Positions 136-4,957 of a DNA stretch of 64,000 nt are shown one piece after another. Made by a program: the position numbers and the translations under genes. The stretch comes from an uncultured bacterium (GTDB lineage Bacteria; Bacteroidota; Rhodothermia; Rhodothermales; Rubricoccaceae), in NCBI GenBank assembly GCA_947493945.1, contig CANLSR010000004.1, forward strand, positions 62,001 to 126,000, read 5' to 3'. Positions within the stretch are counted from its first letter, which is position 1, and each line of letters opens with the position of its first letter. The notes below the pieces were generated by a model. The model was not told the origin of the DNA and made no database searches. It saw only the letters and a list, made by a program, of their open reading frames with translations.

Positions 136-534
136 CTAGTAGCCGCCGCCGTAGCCGCCACCGCCGCCGCGGTTGCCACCGCCGCCGCCGTAGCCGCCAC
201 CGCCGCCGCGGTTGCCACCGCCGCCGTAGCCGCCACCGCCGCCGCGGTTGCCACCGCCGCCGCCGTAGCCACCACCACCGCCGGAGCGCTCGCCGCGCGG
301 GCGGGCCTCGTTGACCGTGAGCGGGCGTCCGCCCATCTCCTGGCCGTTGAGCTCCTCGATGGCGGCCTTGGCCTCATCGTCGTTGCCCATCTCGACAAAG
401 CCGAAGCCGCGCGAGCGGCCGGTGTCGCGGTCCTTGATGACCGTAGCGCTGTCGACCGACCCGAAGGCCTCGAACTGGCTGCGGAGTTCGTCGTCACCCG
501 TGCTGTACGGGAGGTTTGCGACGTAGATATTCAT
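136..534 (-). CDS. RRM-type glycine-rich RNA-binding protein
   Basis: A 132-residue single-RRM protein of the bacterial/cyanobacterial Rbp type, expected to bind single-stranded RNA, often in cold or stress adaptation. RNP2 is visible as IYVANLP (residues 3-9) and RNP1 as RGFGFVEM (about 44-51). The C-terminal 45 residues are a low-complexity tail built from GGGGYGGGGGNRGG-like units, resembling RGG boxes that aid RNA binding or condensation. The start at 534 is chosen because the RRM begins at once; the open frame continues upstream to 690 but that extension is proline/arginine-rich and unlike the family. It is a single gene closed by the terminator at 81-113. The tail is encoded by near-perfect DNA repeats that could vary in number. 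Confidence 0.9.
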   Translation of the reverse strand: MNIYVANLPYSTGDDELRSQFEAFGSVDSATVIKDRDTGRSRGFGFVEMGNDDEAKAAIEELNGQEMGGRPLTVNEARPRGERSGGGGGYGGGGGNRGGGGGYGGGGNRGGGGGYGGGGGNRGGGGGYGGGY

Positions 535-811
535 AATACGGGGGTTGAAAAGGAGCGCCGACAGGGGAATACGAAAGACGGGTGGGCCAGATAGCTCGAC
601 TCGGATCTGTCGGCCCCGCGTGCTCCGGGAAAACGGAGAACCCGAACGACGTCCCAGAGAGGCCGTCGTCGCAGGCTCGATACGGGGCAACCTACCGCGA
701 GAACGGCCGGAGGATCCCTCCCGGGCCGCAAATTCGTATCGGCGAGGTCGCGGCGCGCCTCCGGCGGCCCGGCGCCGAGCGTCAGCGGGCCGCGGTCCCG
801 GCTCGTCTGGC

Positions 812-2724: not shown

Positions 2725-2747
2725 GCTGGCGGAGGCCGTCCGCCAGC
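2725..2747. repeat. GCTGGCGG-type hairpin after the GH13 gene
   Basis: Inverted repeat GCTGGCGGA (2725-2733) / TCCGCCAGC (2739-2747) with a 5-nt loop, starting 4 nt after the stop. It belongs to a family of intergenic hairpins with the same core seen throughout the window. There is no T-run, so termination is uncertain. Confidence 0.6.
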
Positions 2748-2931: not shown

Positions 2932-4227
2932 TTGGCGGGGCGGGGGATCCTCGCCGCCGTGCTCGCGCTCGGCCTCTACGGCTGCGACGCCAGCGGGCCG
3001 GAGCCGACCGGCAGCACCGAGCCGGCTGCTCTCCGCGCCTCGACCGACACTGTGTTGGGACCGGCTGGAGTGCGGACTCAGGGGATCGACGACGACTGCG
3101 ACGACGGCTTCCCGGAGCACCCCTACCCCCCAGGCTGGTTCGACCCTCCGCCGGACGACCCTCCGCCGGACGACCCGCCGTCAGGCCCCCCCGGCGGCGG
3201 AGGGCCTCCTGCGTGCAACCCGTACGACGACACCCTCGACTGCACGGAGCCTCCGCATGGTGATCCGGTGATCGTCGGCGGCCCGACGCCCGGCGGGTGC
3301 CAAGACGGCCCTGGCAGCGGCGGCGGCGGTGGTGGCGGAGGAGGCGGCGGCGGAGGTGGTGGCGGCGGCAACCCTCCGGATCTGCCGTGCGCCCAGGGCG
3401 GCGACGGGTGCCCCGTCCCCGGCGACCCGCCCGGCGACAGCGAGCAGATCGGGCCGACCCTTTCGAAGAGCGACATCCGGGATCTCTTCCTCGACGAGTG
3501 CCCGAGCATCGTCGATCCGAACCCGAGGAAGACCGACCAGAACATGTCGGAGAGCTACGAGCGGAGCCTCGCACGCTTCCTCAGGCTCGGCCGAGGGAGC
3601 GTGAGCGGTACGGCCCAGAAGCTCGACGGGTACCAAACGTTGTACTTCTCGCGATCCGGCGAACGGCTGACCGGCTACGTCTCGCTGATCTTCGAAGCGA
3701 AGCTAAAGGACAGGCAGCCATTCTCTGACCACCCAGGTGATCTCAGACAGGCCCTGGCGCACCTCCAGTTCCTCGCGGACGAGCGTAACCGGCTCCAGGC
3801 CGACTACCCCGGGCTCTGGATCGGCGCCCCGGTCTACGTCGTCGGCTCCCAGAACAGTCGGGGCGCCCGGCCGTGGCCGCTCCCCGAGGGCGACAAGGAG
3901 TGGGAGCTCGGGTCGACGGCGGTGATCGACGACGAGACGGTGGACACGCACCAGGCGATCTTGGACAAGGCACACGACCTGGGCATCGCCGTCGTCCACA
4001 TGAAGGTGGCCGGGTTCGCGTCCGACCTGACGCACAACCTGGAGTTCCGGTTCATGAACGACTTCCCCATCATCAGCACCGGCATCCCGTTCCTGGACTG
4101 GCTTGGCGAGCAGGCCCCGGTGGTCCCGCCGAAGTCGACCTTCACGTACCCGTGGCGGGTCGACCTCGACTGCTCGCTCTACCCGTACCCCGAGGGCGAG
4201 CCGCCCCCCGGCGGCGTCCGGCCCTAG
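2932..4227 (+). CDS. Lipoprotein with Pro/Gly linker and possible PD-(D/E)XK-like C-terminal domain
   Basis: A 431-residue protein of unknown function, starting at a TTG directly before a lipoprotein signal (lipobox LGLYGC). Residues about 20-165 are a low-complexity Pro/Asp and poly-Gly region, including a run of about 17 glycines. The folded C-terminal part begins near residue 178. It contains an IFEAKLK motif (Glu255, Lys257) after beta-strand-like segments and before an amphipathic helix (QALAHLQFL), the arrangement of the ExK motif in PD-(D/E)XK nucleases. A surface-anchored N-terminus, a flexible linker and a compact C-terminal domain followed 28 nt later by a small acidic gene resembles a polymorphic toxin with its immunity gene. 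This is inference: no toxin family was recognised. Its last 35 codons are duplicated at 4741-4845. Confidence 0.6.
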   Translation: MAGRGILAAVLALGLYGCDASGPEPTGSTEPAALRASTDTVLGPAGVRTQGIDDDCDDGFPEHPYPPGWFDPPPDDPPPDDPPSGPPGGGGPPACNPYDDTLDCTEPPHGDPVIVGGPTPGGCQDGPGSGGGGGGGGGGGGGGGGGNPPDLPCAQGGDGCPVPGDPPGDSEQIGPTLSKSDIRDLFLDECPSIVDPNPRKTDQNMSESYERSLARFLRLGRGSVSGTAQKLDGYQTLYFSRSGERLTGYVSLIFEAKLKDRQPFSDHPGDLRQALAHLQFLADERNRLQADYPGLWIGAPVYVVGSQNSRGARPWPLPEGDKEWELGSTAVIDDETVDTHQAILDKAHDLGIAVVHMKVAGFASDLTHNLEFRFMNDFPIISTGIPFLDWLGEQAPVVPPKSTFTYPWRVDLDCSLYPYPEGEPPPGGVRP

Positions 4228-4255
4228 AACAAGGCCGAGCCCCGCCGCCTCGCCC

Positions 4256-4702
4256 ATGTCCAGCAACCTCGTCCTTCACGCCGTCCCCTCCGGCACCTGC
4301 GCCCGCCTCGCTCGCTCCGACGAGCCGCCCCAATACAGCGACGTCGTCGCCGTTGAGCGCTTCGAGAGCTACGTCCCGTTCAGCGGTATCCTAGAGCTCT
4401 ACCAAACCCTGATCGGCCAGCGGTGGGGGCCGGGCAAGCCGACGAGCCTGTGGGGCCTCCCAGCCCGGGACCGGTTCCACCGCGCGCTCGTCGGCGACCG
4501 GCCCCTGGGCGGCGTGACCGGGAGCGACGCGATGGCCGTGGAGGAGGCGTTGTTGACGATGGAGGAGGTGGCGACGCTGGGCGGGCCGGCGATCGCGGCC
4601 GAGGACCTCGACGAGGGGCAGACATGGGCAATCAACCAGTACCGCACGTTCTACCGTAGTCTCGAACCAGGCGAGGAGGCCGTCTACACGTTGCTGTTGT
4701 GA
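4256..4702 (+). CDS. Small hypothetical protein, candidate immunity partner
   Basis: A 148-residue cytoplasmic-looking protein without signal peptide, membrane segment or recognised motif. It is moderately acidic and probably alpha/beta, with helix-forming stretches near residues 85-105. It starts 28 nt after the lipoprotein at 2932-4227 and is on the same strand, so the two are probably co-transcribed. Size, charge and position fit an immunity protein protecting against the C-terminal domain of the upstream lipoprotein, but that role is inferred only from context. The ATG at 4256 is the first that gives a compact protein; the longer open frame upstream overlaps the previous gene in another frame. 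Confidence 0.6.
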   Translation: MSSNLVLHAVPSGTCARLARSDEPPQYSDVVAVERFESYVPFSGILELYQTLIGQRWGPGKPTSLWGLPARDRFHRALVGDRPLGGVTGSDAMAVEEALLTMEEVATLGGPAIAAEDLDEGQTWAINQYRTFYRSLEPGEEAVYTLLL

Positions 4703-4740
4703 GAGGCGTCAGGACGCCCCTGTGCTTGTAACCGTGGTTA

Positions 4741-4845
4741 GCGAGCGGACCCCGGTGGTCCCGCCGAAGTCGACGTTCACCTACCCGTGGCGGGTCGACC
4801 TCGACTGCTCGCTCTACCCGTACCCCGAGGGCGAGCCGCCGCCCA
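4741..4845 (+). pseudogene. Duplicated 3' end of the upstream lipoprotein gene
   Basis: A second copy of bases 4106-4210, differing at only about 5 of 105 positions by eye and encoding the same PPKSTFTYPWRVDLDCSLYP stretch. It has no signal peptide, linker or nuclease-like body upstream, and the small partner gene lies between the two copies. It is best read as the leftover of a second lipoprotein cassette lost by recombination, or of a local tandem duplication. The reading frame stays open to about 4979 but there is no credible start. Confidence 0.75.
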
Positions 4846-4957
4846 CTGGAGCCGGGTTCCCGAGCTACTGCACACCCCGCGCCACTGGCGGAGGCCGCCC
4901 GCCAGCGGGCGGGTTCGAGGTCCGACGCGTCCGCGTGCGGGCGTATGCGATACGCCC

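Follow-up and report, generated by a model that had tools for sequence, protein, structure and literature searches.

A lipoprotein and its adjacent small gene as a candidate nuclease toxin and immunity pair in an uncultured member of the Rubricoccaceae

Does a lipoprotein gene that is followed closely by a small signal-less gene in an uncultured bacterium of the Rubricoccaceae (Rhodothermales) encode a surface toxin together with its immunity protein? The two genes lie in a 64,000-nucleotide stretch of contig CANLSR010000004.1 (GenBank assembly GCA_947493945.1, positions 62,001 to 126,000), which is referred to as the window; all positions given below are those of the window unless a genome is named. 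From comparisons at the level of sequence, we consider it likely that the two genes are a nuclease toxin and immunity pair of the polymorphic type, and that the toxin domain is new.

The candidate toxin ORF (2932..4227; + strand, as are all parts of the pair) starts with TTG and encodes a protein of 431 amino acids. Its first 18 codons (2932..2985) specify a predicted lipoprotein signal peptide, in which a short n-region with Arg and a hydrophobic stretch precede the lipobox LYGC that ends at Cys18. With an Arg within the first seven residues and six positions without charge ahead of the box, this N-terminus, when inspected by eye, agrees with the PROSITE rule for lipoproteins. Cys18 is followed by a ~160-residue spacer with a high content of Pro, Gly and Asp (2986..3459), including a poly-Gly run of 17 codons (3319-3369); a linker of such low complexity says little on its own. 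The C-terminal domain (CTD; 3460..4227), which begins at about residue 177, is of ordinary composition, and the stop codon is separated by 28 nt from the ATG of the small gene (4256..4702), which encodes a 148-residue, signal-less protein. The GC contents at codon positions 1/2/3 are 0.64/0.44/0.92 in the CTD and 0.68/0.49/0.91 in the small gene, similar to those of the flanking conserved genes for an amylase (0.74/0.51/0.97) and PCMT (0.78/0.50/0.96), and the codon-position periodicity shifts frame at the boundary between the lipoprotein gene and the small gene. Thus, both ORFs are real genes, and the layout given in the preliminary description, i.e., a lipoprotein with a Pro/Gly linker and a separate CTD followed by a small gene, agrees with the ORFs and their base composition. 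A perfect GC hairpin (GCCCCGC-TTG-GCGGGGC, 2920-2950) has the TTG start codon in its loop and might reduce translation of the toxin gene.

Neither the lipoprotein nor the small protein of the window matched any family in Pfam, NCBIfam, PHROGs, PADLOC or the PDB sequences. The Pfam Tox-REase models matched none of the CTDs, whether of the window or of its relatives, at E ≤ 10, and the CTD is therefore not assigned to a named Tox-REase family. The family of the toxin domain is apparently undescribed in the family libraries and the open-access literature subset that were searched, as is at least one of the candidate immunity families; descriptions may exist elsewhere.

A search of the order with the whole protein returned one true relative, a 562-residue lipoprotein of genome G046 that has a poly-Gly linker and a CTD with the sequence ILEVKF. 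A profile of two sequences detected the CTD in G431 (two loci) and G039, and a profile of five sequences detected it in G016, together with C-terminal fragments in G430 and G411. The CTD homology thus crosses genera, with five other full-length or frameshifted homologues in four genomes of the same order (G046, G431, G039 and G016), whose identity to the window CTD is 21-24%. One of the two G431 genes (G431:C83) has lost its 5' start at a contig end. In the leave-one-out profile search, the window CTD scored 40.9 bits, compared to a maximum of 3.3 bits among 1,200 shuffled decoys, and the G016 CTD scored 60.6 bits; when both were omitted from the profile, they still scored 32.8 and 47.4 bits, respectively. 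Profiles of this kind confirm every member of the CTD family. The search covered 245 genomes of the class; matches at E ≤ 0.1 came from eight of them, of which one (G043) gave chance-level matches only. Early weak matches from genome searches (L004, L009, L010, L017 and others; E 0.003-0.1) were inspected or judged to be chance.

Profile searches found no homologous CTD in three relatives of the same genus. The PCMT-DacA-sigma block beside the window locus was conserved in two same-genus relatives and one genome of the same family in which the blocks were read, and in those three the amylase and toxin pair do not adjoin the block. A gene on the minus strand of the window (136-690) encodes a protein that is RNA-binding (RRM-like) and has a long tail of Gly-Gly-Tyr repeats; its homologue in G007 likewise lies near the amylase homologue. 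No homologue of the CTD was returned when genome contigs, viral contigs, phages and plasmids were searched with the alignments, the relatives and the CTD of the window; as pattern pre-filters made the contig scans insensitive, the absence of the CTD outside the order is weak evidence.

Domain order is alike in the window protein and its relatives, the CTD coming last in a protein that is exported. Only 14 of the 255 columns in the alignment of the six CTDs are invariant, among them Lys179, Cys190, Asp232, Gly233, Glu255, Lys257, Gln273, His277, Gly298, Pro300, Tyr302 and His356. Glu255 (3694-3696) and Lys257 (3700-3702), which belong to an IFEAKLK segment, had been named from the window sequence as the ExK core of a PD-(D/E)XK nuclease before any relative was aligned, and the small number of invariant columns makes the chance that both would fall on invariant positions ~0.003. 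The ExK proposal gained further from their invariant companions: Asp232 (3625-3627) precedes Glu255 by 17-25 residues and Gln273 (3748-3750) follows Lys257 by 11-15 residues in the six sequences, which is the order D ... [DE]-x-K then Q of the PD-(D/E)XK nucleases. A D...ExK...Q arrangement is listed for toxin families with the restriction-endonuclease fold (Zhang et al., 2012; PMC3482391).

The two genes could also form a toxin/immunity pair in which D, E, K, Q and H, invariant as they are, have a different catalytic or binding role, e.g., in another nuclease fold or a different hydrolase. Such a reading, which we regard as rather unlikely, draws on the lack of a profile match to any nuclease family, on the invariant His277 (3760-3762), His356 and GxPxY motif that lie outside the classical signature, and on two single-sequence AlphaFold models with pLDDT values of 41 and 45, which are too poor to use and gave no meaningful match in two Foldseek searches. 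The Glu of the first helix that is common in the PD-(D/E)XK fold is also not conserved in the CTDs. Against it, the D-x17-25-ExK-x11-15-Q spacing, the hydrophobic stretches ahead of ExK and the helix-like stretch behind it fit the classical core, and the model with a pLDDT of 45, its low confidence notwithstanding, has the element order alpha-beta-beta-beta-alpha-beta that is expected for that core. We describe the CTD as PD-(D/E)XK-like.

A small gene in this position is not peculiar to the window. A small gene on the same strand lies directly 3' of the CTD at all five other full-length or frameshifted homologues, the opposite of a CTD that always stands alone, so that the adjacency on which the preliminary description relied recurs throughout the family. 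The gaps between the CTD and the partner gene are 28 nt in the window, 19 nt in G046, 9 nt in G431:C83, 5 nt in G039 and 1 nt in G016, and ~25-61 nt, depending on the choice of start codon, at the frameshifted copy G431:C2; in G039, two partner genes are arranged in tandem. Contrary to simple expectation, the partner genes are not a single family. Seven of the partner proteins constitute one family by leave-one-out profile (93 bits or more). The partners of the window and G016 fall outside it, and no significant similarity was seen between these two, so that at least three groups unrelated in sequence stand behind one CTD family. Several immunity families per toxin family are the norm in polymorphic systems; for instance, Imm-HEAT, Imm23 and Imm54 are given as immunity families of Tox-REase-7 (Zhang et al., PMC3482391).

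The window partner itself is a sequence orphan. Its score with the leave-one-out profile of the partner family was below those of decoys, and an E-value of 6e-24 against the partner alignment was discarded as circular, its own sequence having been in the alignment. A C-terminal motif, FYR..(A)...GE.VV..L, that appeared to be common to the window small protein and the partner family was rejected after evaluation with leave-one-out and tail-only profiles, as it ranked 167 among tails. With no detectable homologue, the candidate immunity role of the window small protein is deduced from its position and from the layout of the relatives.

One partner group appears to be remotely similar to DUF1877 (PF08974). 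Of the eight aligned partner proteins, three matched the Pfam model, as did a ninth protein, from G444; the E-values ranged from 0.0012 to ~0.02, and the matches displayed fell in one and the same half of the model. The best score was 19.4 bits, compared to a curated cut-off of 22, so all four matches are sub-threshold. A comparison of the partner family with Escherichia coli YfbM by hhalign gave a probability of 1%, although the aligned segment was that seen with Pfam. This sub-threshold likeness to DUF1877/YfbM concerns the partner set of G046, G431, G039, G430, G411 and G444, to which the window small protein, itself without a match to PF08974, is unrelated. Text searches of the open-access literature subset found no link between DUF1877 and toxins. 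The DUF1877-like gene of G444 (L101, 166-744, + strand) has no recognisable toxin tail in the 165 nt before the contig end, and is either an orphan immunity gene or the partner of another toxin.

The N-termini vary as well, and the CTD is found behind at least three unrelated ones. The N-terminal part in the window is a short linker; the G016 CTD lies behind a different lipoprotein region; that of G039 is attached to a large, unrelated, Sec-exported ectodomain without a lipobox; and the lipoproteins of G046 and both G431 loci share an N-terminal domain that the proteins of the window, G016 and G039 lack, these lipoproteins being the only ones with N-termini that align with each other, which makes them the only N-termini that align with each other. 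The shared domain (L074, L077 and L078) carries a YGC ... ATC.IP motif, and could be a delivery module. Searching the family by N-terminus yielded weak signal-peptide-like matches only. The same CTD was found behind different N-termini and beside different partners; the hallmark of polymorphic toxins is the converse, one N-terminus with swapped C-termini, which these loci do not show.

Decayed 3' fragments of toxin genes lie beside small genes at three loci, i.e., those of the window, G430 and G411. In the window, a fragmentary second copy of the 3' end of the toxin gene (4738..4844, + strand) begins 35 nt past the small gene; its 107 nt are 94% identical to the original, with three synonymous codon differences and three residue-changing ones at its 5' edge. 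This fragment, the only further copy of the toxin 3' end in the window genome, fits a picture in which toxin tails are shuffled. The DNA of G430 is 88% identical to that of G431:C2 and collinear with it for ~6 kb, from inside the CTD, of which the last third is included, through the partner gene and the flank; upstream of the breakpoint, the two are almost wholly unrelated, with short weak matches near the toxin 5' end. G430 has no intact toxin gene, and the differences between its partner gene and that of G431 comprise 20 nt in synonymous versus 11 nt in nonsynonymous codons. In the place that the toxin body occupies in G431, immediately upstream of the toxin fragment, G430 has a 113-codon gene with no known family (L093, 7443-7784, - strand), which could be another displaced immunity gene. 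In G411, the toxin fragment is accompanied by two partner genes in tandem, one intact and one broken. A palindrome-like sequence, CTGGCGGAGGCCG(T/C)CCGCCAG, is present at exactly two places in the window (2726-2746 and 4885-4905), one on either side of the module of lipoprotein and small gene, with 0.09 matches expected when up to three mismatches are allowed; the CTGGCGGAGGCCG repeat may form a hairpin of the terminator type or delimit a cassette.

The same observations bear on a second explanation, namely that the lipoprotein is an ordinary surface or periplasmic nuclease that scavenges DNA or acts on the DNA of biofilms. The gene behind it would then encode an inhibitor or be unrelated to it, and the lipoprotein would not be an intercellular weapon. 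Lipid anchoring together with a nuclease-like domain could serve nutrition as well, and gene loss could explain the sparse distribution of the family. Such an enzyme would, however, have no need for a downstream cytoplasmic partner at every locus, let alone partners from several unrelated families that are sometimes duplicated; nor would it account for partner genes retained beside a broken enzyme gene or for the exchange of N-termini, one of which is without a lipobox. We consider this explanation improbable.

The pair is better read as an antibacterial toxin, dependent on contact or proximity, and its immunity gene. Export and lipidation would anchor the toxin in the envelope, at what we infer to be the cell surface, and the Pro/Gly spacer would keep the CTD off the membrane. 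After delivery to a neighbouring cell, the CTD would act there as a metal-dependent, restriction-endonuclease-like nuclease on DNA or RNA. Its Asp232 and Glu255 would bind Mg2+, Lys257 would be the third residue of catalysis, and the active site would be supported by Gln273 from the helix that follows. The small cytoplasmic protein would bind and neutralise the CTD, by which the producer and its kin would be shielded. Recombination would reassort toxin tails and immunity genes, with 3' fragments as its remnants.

Among the working systems that are known, SitA/SitI of Myxococcus xanthus is the nearest; in it, lipoproteins with C-terminal nuclease domains pass between kin by outer-membrane exchange and the downstream gene is protective (PMC5562445). 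The shared features are a lipoprotein signal, a C-terminal nuclease or nuclease-like domain, a gene immediately downstream and recombining cassettes (PMC5562445, PMC8546572). The window has the SitA layout, i.e., a lipoprotein signal and a downstream small gene, and the likeness is one of layout; the G039 relative differs in not being a lipoprotein. SitA homologues have been reported only in myxobacteria with traAB (PMC5562445). The Tox-REase-1 to -10 families (PMC3482391) resemble the CTD in their C-terminal placement, adjoining immunity gene and D...ExK...Q arrangement. Closest by motif is Tox-REase-5, in which FDG, EAK, Q and W (PMC3482391) compare with [LV]DG, E[AVS]K and Q in the CTDs. 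The proteins described here differ from those families in having a lipoprotein or Sec-type signal and in containing no T5SS, T6SS, T7SS or Rhs parts, and no machinery for their delivery was found.

Effectors that are anchored by a lipobox and vary at the C-terminus are also described in Amoebophilus (Zhang et al., PMC3482391), which would suit an effector directed at eukaryotic predators rather than bacteria. Those with eukaryotic hosts as targets are said to lack immunity genes (PMC3482391), in contrast to the candidate immunity gene that is always present here, and we regard a eukaryotic target as highly improbable.

As a bacterial toxin and immunity pair, the window locus has a place in a wider proposal to which we would give about an even chance: an undescribed family of nuclease toxins, spread within one order, is carried by surface lipoproteins and secreted proteins and is paired with several unrelated partner groups, one of them a divergent DUF1877 group and the orphan of the window a new immunity family, so that delivery of toxins by lipoproteins would extend beyond the myxobacteria. 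The open-access literature subset searched contained no mention of polymorphic toxins in the Rhodothermales. With the CTDs, a family of toxin domains is added for which the searched libraries have no entry. If the proposal is true, DUF1877, a domain without known function, would gain an explanation, and DUF1877-like proteins would have a function that can be tested. The Rhodothermales would also provide a second lineage for asking how lipid-anchored toxins enter the cytoplasm of a neighbour, and a single family of CTDs whose partners fall into at least three unrelated groups would offer a natural series for the study of immunity exchange.
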